Shown here: positions 11,777 to 27,894 of the stretch, piece after piece
Layout: each line of letters starts with the position of its first letter
Position numbering within the stretch: position 1 is the first letter of the stretch
DNA from: Natrinema amylolyticum
GTDB lineage: Archaea; Halobacteriota; Halobacteria; Halobacteriales; Natrialbaceae
Direction: 5' to 3'
DNA: 64,000 bases
NCBI RefSeq assembly: GCF_020515625.1
Contig: NZ_JAIWPJ010000005.1
Span: 62,001 to 126,000 of the forward strand
Program-made: the position numbers and the translations under genes
Notes under the pieces: model-generated
What the model was told of the DNA's origin: nothing
Seen by the model: only the letters and a program-made list of their open reading frames with translations
Database searches by the model: none

Positions 11777-12652
11777 TCAGTAGGTCAGGCTCATCCCGCC
11801 CTCGTGGGTCATGTCGCCGCCGTTGAGGTGTTTGCTATGCTGTGAACAGCCCATCACGAACAGGTTCGCGACCTCGTAGGGCTCCATCATCTCCTTGACC
11901 CGAGTGCGCTCTAACATGACGTTCTCGACAACCTCGTCGACGGTCATGTCCCGCCTGTCGGCCGTGTCCGGGAGCTGTTTCGCGACGAGCGCCGTCTTGA
12001 CGTAGGCGGTGCTGACGGTGAACGCCCGCACCTTCCCCTCGCCCTCGGCCGCGATCGACTGCGTGAGTCCCCGGAGCCCGAACTTCGTCGTGTTGTAAGC
12101 CACCTTGTCCCGGGTCACGATGTGGCCGTGGACCGAGCACATGTTCCCGACGACGCCCGTCCCGTCCTCGTTGGCACGGAAGTGGGGCAGACAGTGTTTC
12201 GCGAGCACCATCGGTGCGCGCTGCATGACGTCGTGCATCAGGTCGTACTTCTCGAGCGGGAACGATTCGATCGGCGCGACCGTCTGAATCCCGGCGATGT
12301 TGGCCAGATACCGGAGGTCGCCCTGCGCTGCCGCTTCGTCGACGATCCGCTCGAGATCGTCGTCGTTCGTCAGGTCGGCGACGACCGTGACGAGTTCGCC
12401 CGGCAGGGACAGGTCTTCGGTCTGACTCTGCGTCTCGGCGAGCCCCTCCTCGTCGCGGTCCGTCGCGACGACGGTCAGTTCGTTCGCGGCGAAGGCCAGC
12501 GCAGTGGCCTGTCCGATACCGGAGCCGGCCCCCGTCACGATCGCGACGTTCTCGGCGGCGTAGTGTGGATCCTCGAGCTCCAGGAGATCGTCGCGCGTTA
12601 GTTCGGACGGTCCGTACTTTTCCATCGCTTCCTCGACGGTCATATCAGCCAT
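11777..12652 (-). CDS. Short-chain dehydrogenase resembling D-3-hydroxybutyrate dehydrogenase
   Basis: 291 residues, classical SDR. NAD-binding T-G-A-G-S-G-I-G at 40-47, NIAG at 118-121, catalytic S173, Y186 and K190 (YNTTK). The end (MTHEGGMSLTY) and the spacing resemble 3-hydroxybutyrate dehydrogenases, which interconvert 3-hydroxybutyrate and acetoacetate. About 30 extra residues precede the Rossmann core (MADMTVEEAMEKYGPSELTR), unusual for the family. D66 after the second strand (VVATDRDEEG) favours NAD over NADP. Substrate is an inference. Confidence 0.8.
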   Translation of the reverse strand: MADMTVEEAMEKYGPSELTRDDLLELEDPHYAAENVAIVTGAGSGIGQATALAFAANELTVVATDRDEEGLAETQSQTEDLSLPGELVTVVADLTNDDDLERIVDEAAAQGDLRYLANIAGIQTVAPIESFPLEKYDLMHDVMQRAPMVLAKHCLPHFRANEDGTGVVGNMCSVHGHIVTRDKVAYNTTKFGLRGLTQSIAAEGEGKVRAFTVSTAYVKTALVAKQLPDTADRRDMTVDEVVENVMLERTRVKEMMEPYEVANLFVMGCSQHSKHLNGGDMTHEGGMSLTY

Positions 12653-14088: not shown

Positions 14089-14986
14089 ATTCGGTGTCGA
14101 ATCGCAGACTCCCAGTGGCGTTCGAGCACGGAACAGGCAATGCATGTCGATGCTGCCGACAAACCGAACGAAGCGCCACCCGGAGAGAGTCACGACGCCA
14201 CAGCAGTAAGCCGTCAGTGGGACAGCGACTCGACGTCCGCTGTGGTCGACTGGAACGCTAATTACTGATTGACGATTGGGGAAGTTTCCACGACAGCCGA
14301 AGAATTACAGAGGTACGAGAACGGGAGCACGACGACTCGTCGAGGCGACCGGGGAGACACTCACGAACCGGGTCGCGGTCGATCGGCCTCGAGAGTCGAT
14401 TTCGGGCCCGGTACCGCGCTGTTCCTCGCCGACAGACCGCGTTTTTGTCCGAGAAGCGGAGCAGGTCGACTCGAGTTCGAGCCCCACCCGAGCGAAACCG
14501 CTGAACGAACTCCCGATCGAACTTCGGTGCTCGACCGCGCGGCGGAACGAGAACTCGAACTGATCCCGGCCGACCGGATCGATGATCACGACTCATCGGT
14601 AGCCGGTCGGCCGCGGCGACGGCCGCGACAGCTACATGGAGATCGCGGCCCGCTCGAGCAGTTCCGGACTCCCTCACGCGAGTCGGCGTTCCCGCTCGAG
14701 TCCCACATGAGAACGGACGAGATCGCATTCACTGGTCGCCGAGTGGGTGATGGCTGACACGAGGTGACGGCGAGAGACCAATCGCCGACAGTCTTCCCGA
14801 CGGCATACATCTCAGATCATAGTACCACCTACCAGAATATTATATCTGCATTCATGGGACTTCTACTGCAGTTAATATGCAACCAGAGTACAATACTTCG
14901 CACAATATGGGTCCCGTAGCTCGAGATAAACTCACTTAGCTCGAATAATGGGTAGATTGAATATCACCGCGTCTGATGGATGGCGT

Positions 14987-15382
14987 ATGAGCGATTCGGC
15001 GGATACATCTAAGACTGCTGTCAAAACGTACGTCCCGACCTACCAGAAGGAGGAGTGGGAATCCCATGCCGACGAACTCGACATGAGCCAGAGCGAGTTC
15101 GTTCGAACGATGGTCCAGGCGGGGCGTCGGGGGTTCGAATCCGGCTCAGCGGAACCCGATTCTTCGGACCAAGACCCTGGGGGTAACGGCCTCGAGACAC
15201 AGGTTCTCGAATTACTATCTACTGACACGTATTCGTGGGACGAGCTCCTCGAGGCGGTCGCCGACGACATCGAGTCGCGGTTGGACGAGACCCTCGAGGA
15301 ACTCCAGTCGGCGAACCGGGTTCGATACAGCGGACGCCACGGTGGGTACACGACTATCGACGGTGGTGGCGATGGCGACTGA
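14987..15382 (+). CDS. DUF5805-like small protein coupled to the recombinase
   Basis: 131 residues from ATG 14987. N-terminal part (SKTAVKTYVPTYQKEEWESH, then SQSEFVRTMVQAGRR) looks like a ribbon-helix-helix-type DNA-binding segment. C-terminal part (LSTDTYSWDELLEAVAD, then LEELQSANRVRYSGRHGGYT) looks like a winged helix. I recall this as the DUF5805 family that sits beside XerC-like recombinases in haloarchaea. An upstream in-frame ATG at 14948 is possible but gives an untypical N-terminus. It overlaps the recombinase gene by 11 bp, so the two are co-expressed and it may regulate or assist the recombinase. Confidence 0.75.
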   Translation: MSDSADTSKTAVKTYVPTYQKEEWESHADELDMSQSEFVRTMVQAGRRGFESGSAEPDSSDQDPGGNGLETQVLELLSTDTYSWDELLEAVADDIESRLDETLEELQSANRVRYSGRHGGYTTIDGGGDGD

Positions 15383-16418
15383 GCCCGGGACCGACGCCCC
15401 GGCGGACGTCGCGGACCCAATCGAGTACTTCCTCGACGACCAGCGATACCACGGCAAGAGCGAGCGGACCCTCGAGGCCTACGAGCGCGTGCTCCGGCGG
15501 TTCGAGGCGTTCGTCCGGGAGCGCTTCGACGTCGAGGCGGTCGGGGCGGCCCAGCGCCGCGAGTGTATGGCCTGGATTCACTCGCTGCGCGGCGAGTTCG
15601 AATCCAGCACGATCGCGACCTACGCGTCCTATCTCAACCGATTCTACGATTACATGACTCGCGTCGGCGTCTTCGACGACAACCCGATGGGGCTGGTCAT
15701 GGAAGAGATGTCCGAATCGATCGATACGAACCCGACGCGGCGGGACATCTCCGTCGGCGAAATGCGATCGTTCGTCGGCTCGATCGATCATCCCCTCGAG
15801 CGGGCCGTCGTCGTCACTCTCCTGAAGACCGGGATGCGCGTCGGCGAACTGTGTAACCTCGATCTCCGGGACCTCCACCTCGAGATTCCGGAACTCGACC
15901 TCGAGTGGACGCCCCGCGTCGGGCTCGAGCGGCGGCCGTCGTCGCTGTTCGTCTCGTCCGAACCGGCCCGCGGGACGACCGTCAACGGTGAGGAACGGAC
16001 GGCGTCGAACAAGCGAAAGCGGGACACGGTGGTTCCCGTCGACGCCGAACTTCGGCGCGTACTGCTCGAGTGGCTGGCGATCCGACCGGACGCGGTCTCG
16101 GGGGCGCGGCCGCTCTTTCTCGACACGCGTGACTCGTGGGGCGAGCGGCTCACGCCGTCGGACGTGCGCTATATCGTCGAGAAACACGCTCGAGAGCACG
16201 GCTGGTACCGGACCGGCGGCGGGACTCAGGAGAACGTCACGCCCCACTACTTCCGGCACTTCTTCACCACCCATCTGCGGGATCGGACCGGCGATCGGGG
16301 GATCGTCCAGTACCTCCGCGGCGACGTCGCCGGCGACGTGATCGACACCTACACTCACAACTGGGGCGACCGGGTCCGCGAGACCTACCTCGAGTGCATC
16401 TACGGCGTGACTCGGTAG
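15372..16418 (+). CDS. Tyrosine recombinase (XerC/XerD-like, haloarchaeal)
   Basis: 348 residues. N-terminal SAM-like core-binding domain (about 15-105: EYFLDDQRYHGKSERTLEAY, YLNRFYDYM), then catalytic domain. Catalytic residues visible: R156 (GMRVGEL), a Lys near 214-216 on the beta-hairpin, H292-x-x-R295-H296 (HYFRH) and nucleophile Y327 (DTYTHN). Cuts and rejoins DNA through a 3'-phosphotyrosine, probably in chromosome dimer resolution. The start at 15372 (MATEPGTDAP) lies inside the previous gene. No att-like direct repeats, tRNA or phage genes are nearby, so it reads as a resident housekeeping recombinase rather than an integrase of a mobile element. Confidence 0.87.
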   Translation: MATEPGTDAPADVADPIEYFLDDQRYHGKSERTLEAYERVLRRFEAFVRERFDVEAVGAAQRRECMAWIHSLRGEFESSTIATYASYLNRFYDYMTRVGVFDDNPMGLVMEEMSESIDTNPTRRDISVGEMRSFVGSIDHPLERAVVVTLLKTGMRVGELCNLDLRDLHLEIPELDLEWTPRVGLERRPSSLFVSSEPARGTTVNGEERTASNKRKRDTVVPVDAELRRVLLEWLAIRPDAVSGARPLFLDTRDSWGERLTPSDVRYIVEKHAREHGWYRTGGGTQENVTPHYFRHFFTTHLRDRTGDRGIVQYLRGDVAGDVIDTYTHNWGDRVRETYLECIYGVTR

Positions 16419-16616: not shown

Positions 16617-17084
16617 TTATTCGACGAGCGAGGTCATCTCACAGGAGAGGACCGTCGTCTCGTCGTCTTTGACGACGTCGACCTGATAGCGGACCGTGCC
16701 GGTACCCGGCGCGTCGGGCGTTCGCTCCGTCTCGAGGACCTCGCGTTCGACGCGGATCGTGTCGCCGATGAACGTCGGCGCGGTGAATCGGAGGTCGTCC
16801 ATGCCGTAGAAGGCGACGATCGATTCGCGCTCGAGGGGGGTGCGACTCTGCCAGATCAGGCCCGTCGCGGCCGAGAGGACGAGCATGCCGTGGGCGATCC
16901 GCTCGCCGAACGCCGAGTCGGCCATCCGGTCACCGTCGGTGTGGAGGTGATTGAAGTCGCCGGAGACGCCGGCGAAGTTCGTCACGTCGGCCTCGGTGAT
17001 CGTCCGGCCCTGAGTGACCATGCGATCGCCGACCGCGGCTCGCTCGAAGAAGCCGTCCGCTTCGGGGTCGGTTCCGGCGCTCAT
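16617..17084 (-). CDS. MaoC-like (R)-specific enoyl-CoA hydratase
   Basis: 155 residues, single hot-dog fold. The hydratase-2 motif is complete: D43-F-N45-H-L-H48 (SGDFNHLHTD), followed by FGERIAHGML. Asp43 and His48 are the expected catalytic pair. Hydrates trans-2-enoyl-CoA to (R)-3-hydroxyacyl-CoA and can feed polyhydroxyalkanoate synthesis or modified beta-oxidation. It starts inside the stop of a 43-residue upstream ORF (4-bp ATGA overlap). Confidence 0.87.
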   Translation of the reverse strand: MSAGTDPEADGFFERAAVGDRMVTQGRTITEADVTNFAGVSGDFNHLHTDGDRMADSAFGERIAHGMLVLSAATGLIWQSRTPLERESIVAFYGMDDLRFTAPTFIGDTIRVEREVLETERTPDAPGTGTVRYQVDVVKDDETTVLSCEMTSLVE

Positions 17085-17373: not shown

Positions 17374-18552
17374 TCACTCGATGGGAGTCGGGCTCGAGTC
17401 ACTGGTCAGGAATAGGACGCCGATGCCGACGACGCCGATGCAGGCGTAGCAGAGAAACGTCGTCTCCCAGGAGAACGCACCGATCAGCCAGCCGCCCAGC
17501 GTCGGCGAGACGAGCGTGCCGCTGAACGCGATCGACGTGAACACGGCGAGGCTCGTTCCGCCGGATCCGGCCGCCGCGAGCTCTCGCGTGTAGACGTAGT
17601 AGACGCCCATCCCGAACTGAAGCGAGAAGCCGACGCCGAGCAGAATGATCGAAAAGAGGGCCGTCGATATGGTCCGCGAGACGACGAAGAACGCCGGCAG
17701 CGCGAAGGCGAGCGAGCAGACGACGATCAGCCGCCGACGGTAGCCGACGTAGTCCGAGAGCCAGCCCCCGACGGGTCGGGCGACCATCCCGACCGCGGGC
17801 AACAGCGCCGTGATCGCGCCCGCCTCGCCGAGCGACAGCGGCAATCGCTCCGTCGCGTAGGTCGGCATCCACGAGTTCATGAAGATATAGAGGAGGTACG
17901 AACAGAACCCGGAGAGCGAGACGAGCAGAACTGATCGGTTCCGTAGCGCGTGCCCGAACTCGCCGAGCGTGATCTGATCGCCGGACCGTATCGCCGCGGG
18001 CCTCGAGAGGCGAAAGACGAGATACCCGATCGCCGAGAGGATCGGATAGGCGACGAACACGGCCGCCCAACCGAACGCCGACGCGATGATCGGACCGCCG
18101 AACTGACTGATCGCGAAGCCGAGCGGTGCGCTCGCGATGAACACTGTCGTCACGAATCCCTGCCGGGGACCGCTGAAGACCTGCGCGACGACGTTGGTGC
18201 CGAGAACGAACAGCGCACCCCCGGCGACGCCCGCGACGGCTCGAGTCACGAGGAAGAGCGGATACGCGCCCGCGAACGAGCCCGCGATCGCGACCGGCGC
18301 GAAGACGACCGTGCCGAGGGTCATCAGCCGCCGGTTGTCGTAGTGATCCATGAGGTAGCCGAACGGGAGCTGGATGAGAACGGAGCCGAGGACGGCCGCG
18401 CTGATCGCCAACCCGGCACTGGCCTTGTCGATTCCGAAGGCCGCCTCGAGCAGCGGCACGATGCTCGCCGGGGCGATCATGTACGCGTTCGCGCCGACCG
18501 AGACGAGGAAACACGCCGCGAAGACGCCGCCTCGAGACCGGTGATCGCTCAT
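17374..18552 (-). CDS. MFS transporter
   Basis: 392 residues with about 12 hydrophobic segments. Motif A is visible after the second helix as GYLMDHYDNRRLM and again in the second half as GGWLSDYVGYRRR, the hallmark of the major facilitator superfamily. A cytoplasmic loop at about 190-210 separates the two six-helix halves. Substrate is unknown; carriers of this kind often move organic anions or nitrate/nitrite. It lies head-to-head with the acyl-CoA ligase gene 230 bp away, so it could serve the same catabolic locus. Confidence 0.85.
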   Translation of the reverse strand: MSDHRSRGGVFAACFLVSVGANAYMIAPASIVPLLEAAFGIDKASAGLAISAAVLGSVLIQLPFGYLMDHYDNRRLMTLGTVVFAPVAIAGSFAGAYPLFLVTRAVAGVAGGALFVLGTNVVAQVFSGPRQGFVTTVFIASAPLGFAISQFGGPIIASAFGWAAVFVAYPILSAIGYLVFRLSRPAAIRSGDQITLGEFGHALRNRSVLLVSLSGFCSYLLYIFMNSWMPTYATERLPLSLGEAGAITALLPAVGMVARPVGGWLSDYVGYRRRLIVVCSLAFALPAFFVVSRTISTALFSIILLGVGFSLQFGMGVYYVYTRELAAAGSGGTSLAVFTSIAFSGTLVSPTLGGWLIGAFSWETTFLCYACIGVVGIGVLFLTSDSSPTPIE

Positions 18553-18782
18553 TCCGTCCCCCGATCCGTCGACTGCCTGAAGTCGTATTCACACATGCCG
18601 TCCGGTTGGAGACGTTTCATACTCGTCTACTTATATGTATCTCGAATTATTTCCCCCTCGACCGGTCCAAATTTCACATTTCGGTTTATTTCCGGAATTA
18701 GCGCGTTAGAGAAACCAGCGGACACTGTGGGTTGGTGTGACCTACCATAAATTGTATTACTCGCCTAGTAATTCAGTAGATT

Positions 18783-20468
18783 ATGACAGCTACCGATGAA
18801 CTCGAGGCCTATCACTTCTACGAGCGCGAGTGGGACGATTACGACAGCCTCCGCGAGGCGTTCGAGTGGGAGGTGCCGGAGACGTTCAACATGGCGAGAT
18901 ACGTGTGCGACCAGTGGGCGGACGAGAAGGGGCGAGTCGCAATCTTCGCCGACGACGGCGAGGGCGGCCGGGAGACGTACACGTACTGGCGACTCCGGAA
19001 CGCCGCTAACGCGACGGCGAACGCGTTGCGTGAGCGCGGCGTCGAGCGCGGCGACCGGGTCGCGATCAATCTCCGGCAGCGACCGGAGACGGTCGTCGCC
19101 CACCTCGCCTGCTGGAAACTCGGCGCGGTCTCGGTCCCGTTGAGCACGCTGTTCGGAACGGAGGCCGTCTCCTACCGGCTGAACGACGCCGATGCGGTCG
19201 CCTGTTTCGTCGACGACTCGAACGTCGACACGCTCCGAGACGTCGCGGACGATTCCCCGTCGCTCGAGACCGTGATTACGGTCGGCGACGTCAACCCTGC
19301 GGGCGACGAACTCGCCTTCCGGAACCTGGTCGACTCGCACTCGCGGGAGTTCGAAACCGTGGAGACCGCCGCCGAGGACGACGCCATCATCATCTACACG
19401 TCCGGAACGACGGGCGATCCGAAGGGCGTCAGGCACGCACACCGAGTGCTCCTCGGGAACCTCCCGCTGGTCGTCACCGGGTTCTGTAACATGGAACTGC
19501 GGGAGAGCGACGTGTTCTGGACGCCGTCGGAGTGGGCCTGGGTGGCGACGCTGTTCGACGTGGTCTTCCCGGCCCTGTTCTACGGGAAGCCGGTGGTCGC
19601 CCACACCGCCGACGAGTCGTTCGATCCCGAGACCGCCATGGAGATCATCGAACGCCACGGCGTCTCGGTCTTTTTCGGCCCCGCGACGGCGCTCCGGATG
19701 CTGGAGCGACTGGACGACCCCGACCGGTGGGACGTCTCCAGCCTGCGGTGTCTCCCCAGCGGCGGCGAGTCGCTCGGGCGGTCGCTCGTCGAGTGGGCGC
19801 GAGACGTTTTCGACGGCGCCGCCGTCCACGAGGCGTACGGCCAGACCGAAGCGAACATGCTCGCCGGAGACTGTACGGCGCTGACCGAGTTCCGCGACGG
19901 CAAGATCGGCCGCGCCGCGCCGGGCCACGAGATCGCGATCGTCGATCCGGACACCGCAGAGGAGACGGTCGAAACGGGTGAAGTCGGCGAGATCGCCGTC
20001 CGATACGAGGGGAACCCGGTCTGCTTCAAAGAGTACTGGAACAAACCCAAGCAGACCGATCGGAAGGTCCGTAACGGCTGGCTGCTCACCGAGGATCTCG
20101 GACGGATGGACGAGGACGGCTACCTGGAGTTCGTCTCGCGGAAGGACAGCGTCATCATCAGTGCGGGCTATCGCATCGGCCCCGTCGAGATCGAGGAGGC
20201 GCTGGCGAACAGCGACGCGGTCGCGGACGCGGGCGTCATCGGCGTTCCCGACGACGAACGCGGGGAGGTACCGAAGGCCTTCGTCGTGCTCGCCGAGGGC
20301 TACGAGGAATCTCCCGAACTCAAGGAGCGTCTCCGCCAAGAGATCCGCGACCGACTCGCGAAGTACGAGTACCCACAGGACATCGAGTTCCTCGCGGAAC
20401 TCCCGAAGACGTCCTCCGGCAAGATCCGTCGGACCTCACTCGAGGAACGCGAGGGAGTTCTCGAATAA
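18783..20468 (+). CDS. AMP-forming acyl-CoA synthetase (medium-chain/aromatic acid type)
   Basis: 561 residues. P-loop-like AMP motif IIYTSGTTGDPKGV, A5 region AYGQTEANMLAGDC, hinge DLGRMDEDGYLEFVSRKDS and A10 Lys in PKTSSGKIRR are all present. The enzyme adenylates a carboxylic acid and makes its CoA thioester. The layout resembles the medium-chain and benzoate-CoA-type ligases rather than acetyl-CoA synthetase, and E-S-D-V-F-W-T-P-S-E-W-A-W is typical of that group. First gene of the locus that continues with the Liv importer; transcription likely starts at the AT-rich block at 18746-18775. Exact substrate unknown. Confidence 0.87.
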   Translation: MTATDELEAYHFYEREWDDYDSLREAFEWEVPETFNMARYVCDQWADEKGRVAIFADDGEGGRETYTYWRLRNAANATANALRERGVERGDRVAINLRQRPETVVAHLACWKLGAVSVPLSTLFGTEAVSYRLNDADAVACFVDDSNVDTLRDVADDSPSLETVITVGDVNPAGDELAFRNLVDSHSREFETVETAAEDDAIIIYTSGTTGDPKGVRHAHRVLLGNLPLVVTGFCNMELRESDVFWTPSEWAWVATLFDVVFPALFYGKPVVAHTADESFDPETAMEIIERHGVSVFFGPATALRMLERLDDPDRWDVSSLRCLPSGGESLGRSLVEWARDVFDGAAVHEAYGQTEANMLAGDCTALTEFRDGKIGRAAPGHEIAIVDPDTAEETVETGEVGEIAVRYEGNPVCFKEYWNKPKQTDRKVRNGWLLTEDLGRMDEDGYLEFVSRKDSVIISAGYRIGPVEIEEALANSDAVADAGVIGVPDDERGEVPKAFVVLAEGYEESPELKERLRQEIRDRLAKYEYPQDIEFLAELPKTSSGKIRRTSLEEREGVLE

Positions 20469-20621
20469 TTACTGACGGTCAAGCCGGCTGAACTCCTTGC
20501 GATCACCGGAATCAATTATCGTTTCGAAATCGCCGTAACTATTCCAAAGCGAACGAACGCGCGAAATAATATTTCAAGTAAGGGACAATATTTATTATGA
20601 GGAATAGTGACATGGCACACT

Positions 20622-21983
20622 ATGGCATCGTCGTTCGATCCTGATGGTGAAATCGTGAAACGTGGGGTTCCAAATATCAAAGAAAAGATTGGTCGGCGGC
20701 GGTTCATGAAGGGTGCCGGGACCGCAACCGCCGCGGCGTCGATGGGGCTCGCCGGCTGTAGCAATCCCGCGGACCAGGGCGAAGACAGTTCGGGCGGCGG
20801 CCCGATTCCCGACGAACCGCTTCGGATGGCCTGCATCGGGTTCACGTCCGGTCCGGCGTCCGTCTTCGGCACCCCGATGATGCAGTCCGCCAGAATGGTC
20901 GTCGATCAGATCAACGAGAACGGCGGCATTCTGGGCGAGCGAGAGATCGAGATGGAGGAGTTCGACGAGAACGTCGACGAGGTCGTCCAGCAGTACCGGC
21001 GACTGGCGACCCGAGAGGAGTTCGACGTGATCATGGGCTACATCTCCAGTGCGAACGTGCTGTCGATCGCTCCCATCGCGGAGGAACTCGAGCAGCCGAC
21101 GGTCGTCTGGGACACGGGGACGACGGACCTGTTCGACGACGCGGTGACGGATCCACAGTATATCTTCCGAACGTGTGCGAGCAGTTCGACCGACGCGGTC
21201 GGCGCGGCACGGCTCTTGCAGAACGCGCTTCCCGACGTCGAGACCGTCGCCGGCGTCAATCAGGACTACGCCTTCGGGCGGAACAACTGGGATCTGTTCC
21301 AGCGAGCGGTCGAGAGCCTCGGGATCGACGTCGAACTCGTCGACGCGCGGTTCACGCCGTTCCCGAACGACGACTACAGCTCGACGATCAGCGCGCTCAA
21401 CGACACGAATCCGGACTTCATCTACTCGAGTCACTGGGGCGGTGACGCGGTGAACTTTATCACTCAGGCGAACAATCAGGGACTCTTCGACGATACGCTC
21501 CCCTGTTTCACTGCCGGAAGTCACGTTATCGGGAACATTCCGGACGAAATTCCGGAGGGCATTCTCTTCGGTGCCCGCGGGCCGCACTACCCGTTCGGTG
21601 ACCAGCAGTGGAACTCGCTCCACGGAGAGTTCGTCCAGAGCTACCAGGACGAGTACGGCGAACCGCCGTACGCCCACGGGGCCTTCCACGCCTGGCAGGC
21701 CATCTGGGCGTACGTCTACGCGGTCGAACGAGCGTACAACGTGAGCGGCGAGTACCCCACGAAGGACCAGTGGGTGCAGTCGATGGAGGGGATCGGCTTC
21801 AACTCCCCGAGCGGGTTCGTCAACATGCCACAGGGGAGCCACAACGTCGTCGAGCCGTCCTTCTACGGGTTCTCGGAGCGACAGGAGGATCGGGTCGCCC
21901 TCCGAGATACCGTCTGGATCACTCCCGAGCACGTCAATCCGCCGGCGTCGATGAGCACCGGCGAGTGGATCGACAATCTATAG
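20622..21983 (+). CDS. Liv/Amide-type ABC transporter substrate-binding lipoprotein
   Basis: 453 residues from ATG 20622 (MASSFD). Twin-arginine signal (IGRRRFMKGAGTATAAA) and lipobox (LAGC) at about residues 24-46, then a type I periplasmic-binding fold (ACIGFTSGPASVFGTPM, QINENGGILGEREIEMEE, YISSANVLSIAPIAEEL). Family members bind branched-chain amino acids, amides, urea or aromatic acids. Strong TATA-like AATATTTATTATG lies about 35 nt upstream. The four following genes complete the importer, and the CoA ligase upstream suggests an organic acid rather than an amino acid as ligand. Confidence 0.9.
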   Translation: MASSFDPDGEIVKRGVPNIKEKIGRRRFMKGAGTATAAASMGLAGCSNPADQGEDSSGGGPIPDEPLRMACIGFTSGPASVFGTPMMQSARMVVDQINENGGILGEREIEMEEFDENVDEVVQQYRRLATREEFDVIMGYISSANVLSIAPIAEELEQPTVVWDTGTTDLFDDAVTDPQYIFRTCASSSTDAVGAARLLQNALPDVETVAGVNQDYAFGRNNWDLFQRAVESLGIDVELVDARFTPFPNDDYSSTISALNDTNPDFIYSSHWGGDAVNFITQANNQGLFDDTLPCFTAGSHVIGNIPDEIPEGILFGARGPHYPFGDQQWNSLHGEFVQSYQDEYGEPPYAHGAFHAWQAIWAYVYAVERAYNVSGEYPTKDQWVQSMEGIGFNSPSGFVNMPQGSHNVVEPSFYGFSERQEDRVALRDTVWITPEHVNPPASMSTGEWIDNL

Positions 21984-22005
21984 CGAGCTGACAGTAGCAC
22001 AATTT

Positions 22006-22929
22006 ATGGTTCAACAAATACTCAGCGAACAACTGGTAATCATCCTCAACGGGCTGTCGGGAGCGGCGACGCTGTTCCTGCTCGGGACCGGGCTGTCCCT
22101 GATATACGGGATGCTCAACTTCCTGAACCTCGCCCACGCGGCCTTCCTGCCACTCGGGGCGTATCTCGCCGCGAGCCTCATCCACGCGACGGTCGGAGCG
22201 GTCGGCGGGACCCTCGGGTTCGTCGGCCTGTTCGTGGTCTTCCTCGTCCTGCTCCTCGTCGTCGTCCCGGCGGTCGTCTCGATCGTCGGCCTGGCAATGG
22301 AACGGACCGCGTTCAAGCCGCTGTACGGGATCGAGGACGATTACCAGCTGTTAGCGACGTTCGGTATCATCCTGATGATGGAGGACGCGATGAAGTTCAT
22401 CTGGGGCGGCGAACCGGTGAGCGCGACGGCACCGTCGAACCTGCTCGGCACGTTCAGCCTCCCCGGGGGAACGTATCCCTGGTGGTCGGTGCTGACCATC
22501 CTCGTCACCGCACTGGTCGCCGGCACGCTCTACTACTTCTTCGAGGCGACCCGCCTCGGGAAGATCACGCTCGCGATGGCCGAGGACGAGGAAGCCGTCG
22601 GCTTCACCGGGATCGACACGCGGTCGATCCACCTCAAGGTGTTCGTCATCGGCATCGCGCTGGCGGCGCTCGGCGGCGCGCTCTACCTCCCGACCGCCTC
22701 GATGACGACCGGGCTGGCACTCGAGTTCGTCATCCTCGCGTTCGCGGTGTTGGTCATCGGCGGCCTCGGGAGCCTCAAGGGGGCCATCGCCGCCTCGCTG
22801 ATTATCGGCATGGTACAGGCCTACGGCTCGTACTACGTGCCGGTCCTCGAACTCGCCCTCGTCTTCCTCCTGATGGCCACGATAATGCTGATTAAACCAA
22901 CCGGACTGTTCGGAGAGATCGAAGCATGA
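22006..22929 (+). CDS. Branched-chain-type ABC permease LivH-like
   Basis: 307 residues, about eight membrane helices, starting ILNGLSGAATLFLLGTGLSL and containing the LivH-type EAA region (ATRLGKITLAMAEDEEAVGF, where G-x-x-x-x-A-M-A matches the family). The end (LIKPTGLFGE) is typical. Forms the heterodimeric membrane channel with the next gene. Overlaps it by 4 bp (ATGA). Confidence 0.92.
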   Translation: MVQQILSEQLVIILNGLSGAATLFLLGTGLSLIYGMLNFLNLAHAAFLPLGAYLAASLIHATVGAVGGTLGFVGLFVVFLVLLLVVVPAVVSIVGLAMERTAFKPLYGIEDDYQLLATFGIILMMEDAMKFIWGGEPVSATAPSNLLGTFSLPGGTYPWWSVLTILVTALVAGTLYYFFEATRLGKITLAMAEDEEAVGFTGIDTRSIHLKVFVIGIALAALGGALYLPTASMTTGLALEFVILAFAVLVIGGLGSLKGAIAASLIIGMVQAYGSYYVPVLELALVFLLMATIMLIKPTGLFGEIEA

Positions 22930-23966
22930 GTCAGGACACGAAAACCGGAATCACGGTCGGTATCAGACAGCGGTTCGGGAATCGCTCGAGCGCCGTCGGT
23001 GCCCTGTTGCTGGTCGGTGCGTTCGCCTTCCCGTACCTGCCCGGCACCGGGCAGTACGAGGTGTTCCTGCTGGGCCAGATACTCGCGTTCGCCATCGCGG
23101 CGCTCGCGTACAACGTGTTGCTTGGTTACACCGGTCTGCTGTCGTTCGGGCACGCCGCCTTCTTCGGCGGCTCGGCGTACGCGGTCGGACTCGCGATGCA
23201 GTACTACGGGATGACCGAACTGCTCCTGTTGATCCCCTTCGGCGTCCTCGTCGCGGGGACGATCGCGGTCGTCATCGGCTTCATCTCGGTTCGCCACACC
23301 GAGGTGTACTACGCGCTGTTGATGCTGGCGCTCGCGCACCTGATCTACGTGCTGACGGTGAAGCTGTACACCGTCACCGGCGGGACCGACGGCGTCGCGA
23401 TCACGACGCCGACCATCGCCGGCGTCAACTACCTCACGGCGTGGGGGTACGCGGGCTATCTGATGGGAATCCTCTACTACGTCATCCTGATCTCGTTCGT
23501 GGTGACGGTCGTGTTGCTGTGGACGTTCATGCACTCGCCGTTCGGCCTCACGCTCAAGACCATCCGGGACGATCCGGAGCGAGCGCGAGCCATCGGCATC
23601 CCGGTCCGGCGCTACCGGTGGTACGCGAGCATCATGTCCGGACTCTTCACCGGTCTCGGGGGCGCGATGTACGCGTTTCTCAACGGTCACGTCACGCCGG
23701 GCACGGTGCTGCACTGGTCGCGCTCCGGCGAACTGGCCTTCATGACCGTTCTCGGCGGGACGGGCTGGTTCTTCGGCCCGATCACCGGCGCGGGCGCGTT
23801 CATCCTCATCCGGAGTCAGGCCCAGCAGCTGACCGAGTACTGGCACTTCATGATGGGGCTCGTCCTGTTCCTCGTGATCGTGTTCGAGCCCGAGGGCATC
23901 TCGGGCATCGGCGCGCGGATCCGTCGCAGGGTTCGCGACTGGCGAGGCGGCGGAGGTGAGCAGTGA
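22926..23966 (+). CDS. Branched-chain-type ABC permease LivM-like
   Basis: 346 residues with about nine to ten hydrophobic helices. Conserved LivM segments are YNVLLGYTGLLSFGHAAFFG and PFGLTLKTIRDDPERARAIG (the EAA loop that docks the ATPases). It overlaps livH-like by 4 bp and shares its stop with the start of the ATPase gene (TGATG). C-terminus (RIRRRVRDWRGGG) is positively charged and cytosolic. Confidence 0.92.
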   Translation: MSQDTKTGITVGIRQRFGNRSSAVGALLLVGAFAFPYLPGTGQYEVFLLGQILAFAIAALAYNVLLGYTGLLSFGHAAFFGGSAYAVGLAMQYYGMTELLLLIPFGVLVAGTIAVVIGFISVRHTEVYYALLMLALAHLIYVLTVKLYTVTGGTDGVAITTPTIAGVNYLTAWGYAGYLMGILYYVILISFVVTVVLLWTFMHSPFGLTLKTIRDDPERARAIGIPVRRYRWYASIMSGLFTGLGGAMYAFLNGHVTPGTVLHWSRSGELAFMTVLGGTGWFFGPITGAGAFILIRSQAQQLTEYWHFMMGLVLFLVIVFEPEGISGIGARIRRRVRDWRGGGGEQ

Positions 23967-24712
23967 TGTCCGTCCTCGAGACCCAGGGGCTGACCAAGGA
24001 GTTCGGCGATCTCAGGGCCGTCGACGAGATGAACTTCGAAGTCGACAGCGGCGAGATCGTCGGTATCATCGGCCCGAACGGTGCCGGCAAGACGACCTTC
24101 GTCAACCTGCTGACCGGCGTGCTCGACGCGACGTCCGGCGAGATCGTCTTCGACGGGAAATCGCTGCAGGGATCGGCGGTCCACGACCGGGCTCGAGCGG
24201 GACTCGTCCGCTCCTTCCAGATCCCGCGGGTCTGCGACGACCTCACGCTCGTCGAGAACGTCCGCTCGGCGATCCTCTCCCGGGAGCGGAAGAATAGCTC
24301 CCTGTTCACCGTGCTCGACTGGGAGAACGACACCCGCGCCGAAGCGATCGACCTGCTCGAGGAGTTCGGCCTCGCGGAGAAACGAGAGACTGAGGCCGAA
24401 GCGATTCCCCACGGGGACAAGAAGATCCTCGACGTCTGCATGAGCGTCGCGATGCGGCCGAAGCTGCTCATCCTCGACGAGCCGACCAGCGGCGTCGCGA
24501 CGGAGAACAAGTACGCCATCATGGACCGACTGCAAAACTACTTCGAGACCTCCGATTCGGCGGTACTGTTCATCGAACACGACATGGAACTCGTCGCCGA
24601 CTACGCCGAGCGCGTCGTCGCGATGGACCAGGGGCGGAAGCTCATCGACGGCACGCCCGAGGAAGTGCTCGAGGACCAGACGGTCAAACAGCGCATCCGG
24701 GGTGAGGAGTGA
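23966..24712 (+). CDS. ABC transporter ATPase LivG-like
   Basis: 248 residues. Walker A GPNGAGKTT, Walker B LLILDEPTSG, H-loop near IEHDMELV. The signature loop is IPHGDKKILDVC, a degenerate form of the LivG/BraF type (normally SxGxxR), with Asp-Lys-Lys in place of Gln-Arg-Arg. The long insert after strand 3 (SRERKNSSLFTVLDWENDTR) is also LivG-like. ATG 23966 is preferred over GTG 23963 because it overlaps the upstream stop. Confidence 0.92.
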   Translation: MSVLETQGLTKEFGDLRAVDEMNFEVDSGEIVGIIGPNGAGKTTFVNLLTGVLDATSGEIVFDGKSLQGSAVHDRARAGLVRSFQIPRVCDDLTLVENVRSAILSRERKNSSLFTVLDWENDTRAEAIDLLEEFGLAEKRETEAEAIPHGDKKILDVCMSVAMRPKLLILDEPTSGVATENKYAIMDRLQNYFETSDSAVLFIEHDMELVADYAERVVAMDQGRKLIDGTPEEVLEDQTVKQRIRGEE

Positions 24713-25428
24713 TGTTGCTCGAACTCGACGGCGTCGACGCCTCGATCGAGAACATCACCGTGCTCCGGGACATCGACCTCGCGGTCGACGAGAGCGAAAC
24801 CGTCGGCATCATCGGTCGGAACGGGGCCGGCAAGACCTCGACGTTCCGCTCCGTCATGGGGCTCCAGACCGTCCAGAAGGGGTCCGTGTCGTTCCGCGGC
24901 AAGGACATCACGAACCTCCCGACCCACGACCGCAAGCGTCTCGGGATCGGCTTCGCACCCGAGGACCGCCGGCTCATCTCGAAGCTGACGTCTCGAGAGA
25001 ACATCGAGATGGCGCTGTGGGGCGGTGAGAACGACGCGATCGATTTCGACGACCGACTCTCGGTCGTCCTCGACATCTTCCCCGCGATGGAGAGCTTCCT
25101 CGACCAACCGGCCGGAAAGCTTTCCGGGGGCCAACAGCAGATGGTCACCGTCTCCCGCGCGCTCGTCGCCGAACCGGAACTGGTCCTGTTGGACGAACCC
25201 TTCGAGGGGCTCGCACCGAGCATCAAGCAGGACCTGATCGAGAGCATTCCGCGAATCCGCGAGGAGTTCGACGCCGCCGTCTTCGTCGCCGAATCCCAGA
25301 TCAATCAGGTCAAGGACTTCGTCGACCGGTTGTACGTCATCGAGCGCGGCGAGATCATCGCCGAGACGGACGACGCCGCGGCGGTCACCGAAGACGAGGA
25401 ACTGATGCAGATCATCGGCGGTGCCTGA
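24712..25428 (+). CDS. ABC transporter ATPase LivF-like
   Basis: 238 residues. Walker A GRNGAGKTS, signature LSGGQQQM, Walker B LVLLDEPFEGLAP, which is the LivF consensus. LivF normally ends in a shorter C-terminus than LivG, as here. ATG 24712 overlaps the livG-like stop by one base. It partners with LivG to power uptake through LivH/LivM. Last gene of the tight importer string. Confidence 0.92.
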   Translation: MLLELDGVDASIENITVLRDIDLAVDESETVGIIGRNGAGKTSTFRSVMGLQTVQKGSVSFRGKDITNLPTHDRKRLGIGFAPEDRRLISKLTSRENIEMALWGGENDAIDFDDRLSVVLDIFPAMESFLDQPAGKLSGGQQQMVTVSRALVAEPELVLLDEPFEGLAPSIKQDLIESIPRIREEFDAAVFVAESQINQVKDFVDRLYVIERGEIIAETDDAAAVTEDEELMQIIGGA

Positions 25429-25495
25429 CCGATACCGCGGCTGATCGCCGCGGCCGAGCGTCGCTTCTACGTCCGTCGTCATCCTCTCTCCGACC

Positions 25496-26179
25496 ATGAC
25501 CGAGGCCCCATCCCACGCCGACTGGATCGATCTCACCCAGCCGTTCGACGGCGACGTCCCGCACTCGGCGGCGCTTCCGGCCCCCGAGTTCGAGACGATC
25601 AGCGACGTCGATCGCGACGGAGTCAACGCCCAGTGGATCGGAACGCCGACCCACGTCGGCACGCACGTCGACGCGCCCCGCCACATGATCGCCGGCGGCG
25701 CGACGATCGATGAGCTCCCGCTCGAGCGCTTCGCCGGTCCCGCGACGGTCGTCGACGTTGCCCGCGAGGACTCCGAACCGATCGCCGCGGCCGAACTGGC
25801 GGCGGCCGCCGACGACGTTCGCCCCGGCGATATCCTGCTCGTCCGGACCGGCTGGGGCGACCGATACGACTGCGAGGAGTACGAGCGGTATCCGTGGCTC
25901 GCCGCCGACGCGGGCGACTGGCTGCTCGAGCAGGGAGTGAAACTGCTCGCCGTCGACACGCCGAGTCCGGACCGGCCCCGTGCGACGCGACCCGACGGCT
26001 GGGACGAGTATCCGATCCACCGGACGCTGTTCTCGGCGGACGTGCTCATCGCGGAACACCTCAACATTCCGGCCAAGCTGGCCGGCACTCGGCCGACCGT
26101 CTTCGGATTTCCGCTGTCCCTCCGCGGCGGCGACGGCGCGCCCGCCCGGTTCGTCGCGACCCCGACGGCCGCGCCGTGA
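25496..26179 (+). CDS. Cyclase-family metal-dependent hydrolase
   Basis: 227 residues. The family metal motif H53-V-G-T-H57-V-D59-A-P-R-H63 is complete. The family includes kynurenine formamidase and isatin hydrolase, which open amide or lactam bonds using Mn2+ or Zn2+. It follows livF by 67 bp and so is probably in the same transcript. In a catabolic locus it could hydrolyse an aryl-formamide, lactam or cyclic intermediate; that role is inference. Confidence 0.85.
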   Translation: MTEAPSHADWIDLTQPFDGDVPHSAALPAPEFETISDVDRDGVNAQWIGTPTHVGTHVDAPRHMIAGGATIDELPLERFAGPATVVDVAREDSEPIAAAELAAAADDVRPGDILLVRTGWGDRYDCEEYERYPWLAADAGDWLLEQGVKLLAVDTPSPDRPRATRPDGWDEYPIHRTLFSADVLIAEHLNIPAKLAGTRPTVFGFPLSLRGGDGAPARFVATPTAAP

Positions 26180-26298
26180 CTCGTCTCGAGCCGCGATCGT
26201 CGACACCTCGAGATGCAATCGCAGACACATCGACGACGAGACCTGTCTCTCCGACAGACCGGGAAAACGCTTTTACTGCTCCCTGATGAGTGGGTCGT

Positions 26299-27087
26299 AT
26301 GTCCGAAATCGGAAACGGTCACGTTCGGATCGAGCGCGACGGACCGCGCGCCGACGTGATCATCGATCGCCCGGAGAAACGCAACGCGATGAACGAGGCG
26401 ACCGTCGCGGATCTCACCGCCGCCATCGGCGAGGTCGACGCGGACGACGACGTCCGCGCCGCGACCCTGCTGGGCGAGGGCTCGGTGTTCTGTGCCGGCT
26501 TCCAACTCGAGATGATGCACGAGAAGGACGTCGACGACCACGACGAGTTCCACCGCGCGTTCCGCGAGCTGCTGGACGCGATCGACGAGACGACGACACC
26601 GGTCGTCGCGGGCATCAAGGGCGCCGGCATCGCCGGCGGGTTCGAGCTCACGCTCCCCGCGGACCTCCGCGTGCTGGGCGCGGAGACGAAGTACGGCATC
26701 ATCGAGGTGAACCTGGGCATCTTCCCGCATCAGGGCTCGACCCAGCGCCTACCCCGAATCGTCGGCATCGGGAAGGCCAAGGAACTCGTCCTGACGGGCG
26801 ACTACGTCGACCCCGAAGAGGCGGCGCAGTGTAACCTCGTCACCGAGGTCGTCGCCGAGGACGCCGTCGACGACCGCGCGAGGGAACTGGCAGACGAACT
26901 GACCGAGAAGGCACCGCTGGGCATCGCGAACGCGCTCGAGGCCTTCCAGACGACGTTCGACGTGCCCCTCGAGGACGGGCTCTCGACCGAGCACCGACTG
27001 GCGATGCAGGTGTATGGCACTCGCGACCGGAAGGAAGGGTTCGAGGCGCAGTTAGAGCGCCGAGAACCGGAGTTCGAGGGTCGGTAG
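26299..27087 (+). CDS. Enoyl-CoA hydratase/isomerase family protein
   Basis: 262 residues, crotonase fold. The N-terminal NRP-like motif is IDRPEKRNAMN. Oxyanion-hole segments are GEGSVFCAGFQLEM and GIKGAGIAGGFELTLPADLR. The position of the usual first catalytic Glu (in the LGIFPHQGSTQRLPR region) reads EVNLGIFPHQGS, so E is retained shortly before, while the GG-SQ variant resembles hydratases. Probable role is hydration of an enoyl-CoA made after the CoA ligase. ATG 26299 chosen (MSEIGNGHVRIE); a GTG at 26290 is also in frame. Confidence 0.85.
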   Translation: MSEIGNGHVRIERDGPRADVIIDRPEKRNAMNEATVADLTAAIGEVDADDDVRAATLLGEGSVFCAGFQLEMMHEKDVDDHDEFHRAFRELLDAIDETTTPVVAGIKGAGIAGGFELTLPADLRVLGAETKYGIIEVNLGIFPHQGSTQRLPRIVGIGKAKELVLTGDYVDPEEAAQCNLVTEVVAEDAVDDRARELADELTEKAPLGIANALEAFQTTFDVPLEDGLSTEHRLAMQVYGTRDRKEGFEAQLERREPEFEGR

Positions 27088-27132
27088 CACCATCGAGTCA
27101 ACGTTCGAAGACCGATACGCTCGCGGGACCGG

Positions 27133-27894
27133 TCAGTCGTCGAAGAAGTCGGCGACCCGCCGCTGGGTCTCGTCTTCCTGATAGGCCGCGATCGCGTGGT
27201 GAATCGCCTGCTGCATCGCCTCCTCGAGGTTCAGCGGCCGGGCCGAGTGGACCTGGCGTTTGGCGAGCCCGTGGACGTAGGTGGGCTTGCTCGCGAGGTC
27301 GTCCTCGAGGGCCCGGAGTTCGTCCTCGAACGCCGCGGAATCGTGGACTTCCTCGACCAGCCCCGCGTCGAACGCGCGGTCGGCATCGATCGTTCGATCG
27401 GTCATGATCAGGTACTTGGTCAGTCCCTCGCCGACGAATCCCGGGAGCTTCTGTGCGCCGCCCAGGTCCATCGCGAGTCCCATCTCGGACTCCGGAAGGC
27501 CGAACTCCGCGGATTCGTCGGCGATGCGGATATCACAGGCCAGCGCTAGTTCGAGACCGCCGCCGAGGACGTGGCCTTCCAAGGCGGCGACGACGGGCGC
27601 GTCCAGTCGCTCGATGGCCCGCAAGTCCTCGTGGATCGACTCGAGTTGATCGCGGACGACGAGCGGATCCGCCGCGCCCCACTCCGGTACGTCCGACATG
27701 TCCACGCCGGCCGAGAAGGTTCCGTCCGCGCCGCGGATCGTCACCACGTCGACGTCCTCGGCCGCGAACTCGTCGAATGCGTCGCCGATCGCGGCGAACA
27801 TCTCGCCGGTCAGCGAGTTGGCCTTCTCCGGCCGGTCGAGCGTCACCGTCGCGCGGCCGTTCGATCGCTCTACGAGAATGTCACTCCCACTCAT
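27133..27894 (-). CDS. Enoyl-CoA hydratase/isomerase family protein (second, convergent)
   Basis: 253 residues, crotonase fold. LDRPEKANSLTGEMF at the N-terminus, GADGTFSAGVDMSD and ALEGHVLGGGLELALACDIR for the oxyanion hole, ESEMGLAMDLGGAQKLPGFVG for the active-site helix. It is a paralog of the gene on the other strand that ends 45 bp away. Position suggests a role in the same degradation pathway, but it has its own promoter. Could be a 2,3-enoyl hydratase or an isomerase. Confidence 0.85.
   Translation of the reverse strand: MSGSDILVERSNGRATVTLDRPEKANSLTGEMFAAIGDAFDEFAAEDVDVVTIRGADGTFSAGVDMSDVPEWGAADPLVVRDQLESIHEDLRAIERLDAPVVAALEGHVLGGGLELALACDIRIADESAEFGLPESEMGLAMDLGGAQKLPGFVGEGLTKYLIMTDRTIDADRAFDAGLVEEVHDSAAFEDELRALEDDLASKPTYVHGLAKRQVHSARPLNLEEAMQQAIHHAIAAYQEDETQRRVADFFDD

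Follow-up and report, generated by a model that had tools for sequence, protein, structure and literature searches.

A haloarchaeal Liv-type importer paired with an acyl-CoA ligase as a probable module for the use of an external monocarboxylic acid

Gene content and layout of the locus

In this paper we describe a gene cluster of the haloarchaeon Natrinema amylolyticum in which a Liv-type importer follows an acyl-CoA ligase gene. The cluster lies in a stretch of 64,000 nt (the window) of a 4.71 Mb genome, and statements about the whole genome come from targeted searches. An initial annotation of the window had described a run of ligase, importer, cyclase and two hydratases, with an MFS carrier and a MaoC hydratase next door. 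Open reading frame (ORF) calls and domain calls recover every one of these genes at the same coordinates, but hydratase 2, the MFS carrier and MaoC are on the opposite strand. The predicted features are as follows.

18783 to 20468, plus strand: AMP-forming acyl-CoA ligase of the MACS type (PF00501/PF13193; nearest PDB entries; Gly353)
20622 to 21983, plus strand: solute-binding lipoprotein of the Liv/HAAT importer (PF13458, Peripla_BP_6; twin-arginine signal and lipobox; fold and profile)
22006 to 22929, plus strand: LivH-type permease (PF02653, BPD_transp_2)
22926 to 23966, plus strand: LivM-type permease (PF02653, BPD_transp_2)
23963 to 24712, plus strand: LivG-type ATPase (PF00005)
24709 to 25428, plus strand: LivF-type ATPase (PF00005)
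25496 to 26179, plus strand: PF04199 metal-dependent hydrolase, here called the cyclase (domain, conserved residues, fold match)
26299 to 27087, plus strand: enoyl-CoA hydratase 1 (PF00378; both catalytic Glu kept; linkage in relatives)
27133 to 27894, minus strand: enoyl-CoA hydratase/isomerase 2 (PF00378-type; crotonase-family matches; conserved in four Natrinema)
17374 to 18552, minus strand: MFS carrier (PF07690, MFS_1; conserved in four Natrinema)
16617 to 17084, minus strand: MaoC-type hydratase (PF01575; the copy at locus L063 is 96% identical)
18744 to 18782, plus strand: conserved block preceding the ligase, a candidate promoter/operator (intergenic alignment of four genomes; putative function)

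Conservation places two likely starts slightly inside their ORFs, at 20622 for the binding-protein gene (ORF opening at 20607) and at 26299 for hydratase 1 (opening at 26290). The binding-protein gene is separated from livH by 22 bp, and a 4-bp overlap is found at each of the LivH/LivM, LivM/LivG and LivG/LivF junctions. The gaps that follow are 67 bp between livF and the cyclase and 110 bp between the cyclase and hydratase 1. Since hydratase 2 is convergent with hydratase 1, and the MFS and MaoC genes lie upstream of the ligase and divergent from it, the locus is not a single operon.

When the gaps of four Natrinema genomes are aligned, the ligase, the binding-protein gene and hydratase 1 are each seen to follow a conserved AT-rich block that resembles a promoter, and the livF-cyclase gap has no such block. 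From the sequence we infer three units on the plus strand, namely the ligase, the binding protein with LivHMGF and the cyclase, and hydratase 1. The block before the ligase holds ACCATAAATTGTATTAC...GTAATTCAG, with the imperfect inverted repeat TTGTATTAC-n7-GTAATTCAG directly before the gene. The left half of this repeat is conserved in four genomes and the right half in three, and the block is a possible promoter or operator. A scan with the bacterial consensus, which does not cover archaeal promoters, returned about the chance number (2 found against 1.3 expected). Upstream of MaoC, positions 14948 to 16418 hold a small DUF-like gene and a tyrosine-recombinase-like gene, which are conserved in L063 and not at the plasmid copies of the cluster.

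Conservation and mobility of the cluster

We compared eight loci: the window and three others from Natrinema (L063, L159 and L160), one each from Halomarina (L163), Haloglomus (L007) and Haladaptatus (L146), and one from a metagenome-assembled genome (L147). For the relatives, ORFs were picked by a simple procedure based on composition, and the gene names come from BLAST against the window genes, from NCBIfam (ten genes) or from public annotation (L155-L165); the remaining neighbours were named by reading the sequence, which gives a lead and not a test.

The order ligase, binding protein, LivHMGF is found in all eight loci with a binding protein at least 63% identical, with the ligase immediately upstream of the binding-protein gene, and this makes the arrangement more than a chance neighbourhood. 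Among 125 genomes of the family, the binding protein is 88-92% identical in just three others, and the next tier is at 35-39%. Of 391 genomes sampled across the class, four carry a close binding protein, and the ligase is again immediately upstream in each of them (4/4).

Hydratase 1 is linked in seven of the eight loci (the window, the three other Natrinema, Haladaptatus, Haloglomus and Halomarina), and its relatives are 73-97% identical. A FAS1-like MaoC and a zinc dehydrogenase are linked in the Halomarina, Haladaptatus and Haloglomus loci, an acyl-CoA dehydrogenase in those of Halomarina and Haladaptatus, and a 3-hydroxyacyl-CoA dehydrogenase in that of Haloglomus. Among these importer loci, the cyclase, the MFS carrier and hydratase 2 occur in none but those of the four Natrinema, and of these only the window and its closest relative have the MaoC gene at 16617 to 17084.

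The closest relatives of the cluster include plasmids of Natrinema salinisoli and N. caseinilyticum, which belong to the same genus as the window, and Haladaptatus QDMS2 and Halomarina PSR21 also carry it on plasmids. Housekeeping genes surround it in the window and in the nearest relative (G072). Being plasmid-borne in some genomes and embedded among housekeeping genes in others, the cluster probably moves between replicons.

The ligase, the hydratases and associated mutases

The best structural relatives of the ligase are 5u2a, 9g79, MacsMa (3etc) and ACSM2A. Its Gly353 occupies the position of Trp414 in Acs, and its HEAYGQTE motif aligns with RESYGQTE of ACSM2A. A Gly at this position is a mark of medium-chain rather than acetate enzymes (PMC10455477, PMC6122825). 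With its AMP-binding fold and this Gly, the enzyme is classified by sequence as a MACS-type acyl-CoA synthetase. It has the family and the pocket Gly in common with ACSM2A and with MacsMa, the 2-methylbutyryl-CoA synthetase of Methanosarcina acetivorans, but Trp259 of MacsMa is Phe258 in the window ligase. The motif WTP[SA]EWAW, which is kept in most homologues of the ligase down to about 35% identity, is absent from the PDB enzymes in the alignment.

Hydratase 1 keeps both of the Glu residues that are catalytic in the crotonase family, with GGFELTL and IIEVNLG aligned to GGLELAL and LPEINLG of 5zai, and it is predicted on this basis to be a crotonase-type enoyl-CoA hydratase. Two of the four Natrinema have an acyl-CoA mutase gene next to that of the MFS carrier, accompanied in N. 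caseinilyticum by a B12 subunit and a 3-hydroxyacyl-CoA dehydrogenase; within the window no acyl-CoA mutase was found. The closest PDB relative of this cluster-adjacent mutase is 2-hydroxyisobutyryl-CoA mutase (610 bits). At the aligned positions, Ile and Asp of that enzyme are replaced by Phe and Ala, and the methylmalonyl-type Tyr and Arg are also missing.

A second B12 acyl-CoA mutase is encoded elsewhere, at C2:507001-508689 of the same genome (L121, L139), at 13986-15683 of L064 and at 3290-4987 of L065. It has Phe and Asp/Glu in place of the methylmalonyl-type Tyr and Arg and is likewise nearest in the PDB to 2-hydroxyisobutyryl-CoA mutase. Each of these genes lies close to a Liv importer.

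The importer and its binding protein

The importer is a Liv/HAAT-type ABC system, with a Peripla_BP_6 protein, two BPD_transp_2 permeases and two ABC ATPases in one run. A profile of 16 haloarchaeal relatives of the binding protein scores 126 bits with 3i45, 82 with the p-hydroxybenzoate-binding 4ey3 and 57-64 with LivJ/LivK. The AlphaFold model of the protein (pLDDT 77.8) likewise has 3i45 as its top fold match (Z 42.2), followed by 4maa and binders of 4-hydroxybenzoate and vanillate (Z about 39-40; 39.1 for 4ey3), alongside UrtA (39); LivK and LivJ are lower (Z 35.5-37.1), and the fold is also near that of the amide-binding AmiC. The structure 3i45 was reportedly solved with nicotinate, a point not used as evidence here. 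Both comparisons would place the binding protein modestly nearer to relatives that bind aromatic acids and urea than to LivJ/LivK. A role as a urea importer (Urt) was rejected, with all five subunits below the NCBIfam cut-offs (81.7 against 494.8 bits for the binding protein, for example).

That the system might be an ordinary branched-chain amino acid importer, next to the ligase by chance, is what its LivHMGF fold family and its annotation would suggest. The adjacency of the ligase in 8/8 loci, the lower scores of LivJ/LivK relative to acid- and urea-binding proteins, and the presence of Phe301 where the leucine-binding 3td9 has Asp all argue against this, and we regard it as very unlikely. 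The initial annotation had held that a binding protein specific for branched-chain amino acids would count against its reading; sequence and modelled fold lean away from that specificity.

Several other Liv importers were seen in the course of the searches. One type (L072 at C2:405000-424900 of the same genome, L070, L071, L073 and L074) has a binding protein 30-33% identical, an SDR that scores best against 3-hydroxybutyrate dehydrogenase models and is 60-63% identical to window 11777-12652, and, except in L073, an acetate/acetoacetate-type ligase of 674-694 aa; it is a candidate importer of 3-hydroxybutyrate or acetoacetate. In L066 and L150, Liv importers adjoin a CoA ligase, UbiD-family decarboxylase genes and thiolase-like genes, which suggests an acid degraded via decarboxylation. 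L067, L068, L069 and L153 have Liv binding proteins near a carboxyltransferase and a ligase that is 38-40% identical. An acyl-CoA dehydrogenase-like gene is also present in L067, L068 and L069, and a biotin carboxylase in L067 and L153, which makes this a candidate isovalerate- or methylcrotonyl-like set. At C4:80000-159600 (L135-L138), on a 313 kb contig of the same genome, a dense catabolic island is rich in genes that resemble those of acyl-CoA dehydrogenases, hydratases, ligases and CaiB; it also has a second ligase of the window-ligase family (53%) and another Liv importer adjoining a ligase and hydratases. In L149, and in L164 on the Haloferax alexandrinus plasmid pBNX82-4, a binding protein about 40% identical with LivHMGF adjoins an aldehyde ferredoxin oxidoreductase-type gene.

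The cyclase and its partners

In an alignment of 11 sequences, H53, G55, T56, H57, D59 and H63 of the cyclase, which belong to the motif HxGTHxDAPxH, are invariant, as are H175 and E187. With this metal-binding motif and the catalytic His and Glu, the protein is assigned by sequence to the PF04199 cyclase/kynurenine formamidase superfamily. The kynurenine formamidase KynB and isatin hydrolase have the fold (Z 23-25) and HxGTHxDxPxH in common with it, but they are only 22-30% identical. An identity as arylformamidase (KynB) was rejected, the score being 77.1 bits against the TIGR03035 equivalog cut-off of 223.05.

Unlike KynB, with its tryptophan-breakdown setting, cyclases 40-59% identical to that of the window sit in organic-acid clusters with ligases, CoA-transferases, thiolases, MmgE/PrpD, and 3-hydroxyisobutyrate-dehydrogenase-like or DHDPS-family genes. 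Seven of the sampled genomes have a close cyclase as well as a close ligase, and in four of them the two are adjacent or lie in the same cluster. These four include two Halomarina-type genomes without the importer, where the cyclase adjoins a ligase 64-65% identical. These neighbourhoods, together with the pairing, suggest that the cyclase may supply an acid to the ligase by hydrolysis. The recurrent ligase-cyclase pair is the less expected element of the cluster.

In a less likely alternative, an amide or lactam would be imported and hydrolysed by the cyclase, and the ligase would activate the acid product. The fold of the binding protein, near the urea- and amide-binding UrtA and AmiC, would agree with this, as would the catalytic residues that the cyclase has in common with kynurenine formamidase and isatin hydrolase, and the livF-cyclase gap without a conserved promoter-like block. 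On the Agrobacterium rubi plasmid pW2_73_1 (L162), a 35% identical relative of the binding protein is found with LivHMGF and with amidase and nitrile hydratase genes. Against it, the importer relatives outside Natrinema are without the cyclase, which implies that the importer works without it. A more elaborate and quite unlikely version is that a cyclic amide or lactone is imported, opened by the PF04199 hydrolase and activated by the ligase, and that in some species the adjacent non-methylmalonyl B12 mutase rearranges the skeleton before beta-oxidation.

Discussion

Starting from the observed gene content, invariant linkage, intact catalytic motifs and absence of the ring-cleavage markers searched, we propose, with a probability of about 0.62, that the cluster is a mobile catabolic module by which haloarchaea take up a monocarboxylic acid from their surroundings, activate it with CoA and break it down by a route of the beta-oxidation type. 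Entry of the acid, or of a precursor in the form of a cyclic amide or ester, would be through the lipoprotein and LivHMGF, and the MACS-type ligase would form the CoA thioester of the acid. Acyl-CoA dehydrogenase, hydratase and dehydrogenase steps would then degrade the thioester, with hydratase 1 encoded locally and the other enzymes elsewhere in the genome. The PF04199 hydrolase, the MFS carrier and the second hydratase would be Natrinema additions; the most likely role of the hydrolase is to release the ligase's acid substrate by opening the ring of an amide or ester.

Which acid is carried can be narrowed only with low confidence. Our searches of the host genome did not find PaaA/PaaC, for which reason a role in phenylacetate use was rejected, nor homogentisate dioxygenase (HgmA), and gave nothing above the cut-off for gentisate dioxygenase, only a 19-bit fragment. 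The sole Rieske oxygenase found adjoins dimethylglycine/sarcosine-oxidase-like genes (named by reading the sequence), a betaine-type context. The lack of these aerobic markers disfavours an aromatic substrate, while the beta-oxidation genes of the relatives and the non-methylmalonyl mutase of two Natrinema point to a branched or alicyclic aliphatic acid. As a first guess we would favour such an acid over aromatic acids and over amino acids. An aromatic acid, benzoate-like or phenylpropanoid, whose ring is opened by an unrecognised route seems unlikely. In its favour, the 4-hydroxybenzoate and vanillate binders are the nearest to our binding protein among those with characterised ligands, and PMC3223731 describes Liv importers of Rhodopseudomonas palustris that adjoin CoA ligases and carry aromatic acids. 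Against it, besides the missing markers, identity to these binders in the structural alignments is only 17-19%.

Several points weigh against the proposed monocarboxylic acid module. The differences in fold and profile among Liv-type binding proteins are small and give a lean, not proof, and their ligands are poorly predicted from sequence, as PMC3223731 reports. The window module has no acyl-CoA dehydrogenase. The confinement of the cyclase, MFS carrier and hydratase 2 to Natrinema means that these may serve another route. The negative results for ring markers cover PaaA/C, HgmA, gentisate dioxygenase and ring-hydroxylating enzymes; intradiol, extradiol and benzoyl-CoA oxygenases were not searched.

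The proposal of the initial annotation that a carboxylic acid is taken up and activated with CoA is well supported by the invariant ligase-importer linkage, the MACS-type ligase and the acyl-CoA dehydrogenase, hydratase and dehydrogenase genes of the relatives. Its description of the substrate as aromatic or alicyclic goes further than the evidence. The suggestion that the pathway would be novel is unneeded, for an ordinary beta-oxidation-like route suffices and clusters of R. palustris share the architecture (PMC3223731).

More widely, Liv importers are paired with CoA ligases in several operon types and so probably import organic acids, and haloarchaeal 'branched-chain amino acid' importers are likely often misnamed. 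If true, this would alter what is concluded from genomes about carbon use in haloarchaea. The ligase-cyclase pairing, which is independent of the importer, offers a testable substrate lead for a large and poorly characterised family of hydrolases.

Comparison with known systems

A literature search on haloarchaeal Liv/CoA-ligase operons found nothing relevant, and the closest parallels are bacterial. According to PMC3223731, the R. palustris loci hbaEFGHI (between the bad and hba clusters), RPA1789 (p-coumarate) and RPA3723-3725/pimFABCDE encode Liv/HAAT importers. As in the window, a binding protein and importer adjoin an acyl-CoA ligase and hydratase or beta-oxidation genes. Aromatic or fatty/dicarboxylic ligands were measured for the bacterial proteins, whereas those of the haloarchaeal cluster can only be predicted; the passages on the bacterial loci mention no PF04199 cyclase, which the window has. 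The Thermus thermophilus plasmid pAA2-2c has the same order of AMP-binding ligase, binding protein and H-M-G-F as the window, at 30-42% identity. A Zn-alcohol dehydrogenase lies beside it, as in the haloarchaea outside Natrinema, and an SSADH is also present, but unlike the window the compared stretch has no hydratase or cyclase. The architecture is thus already known from bacteria, and the window represents a haloarchaeal case with an additional hydrolase of a ring-opening type.

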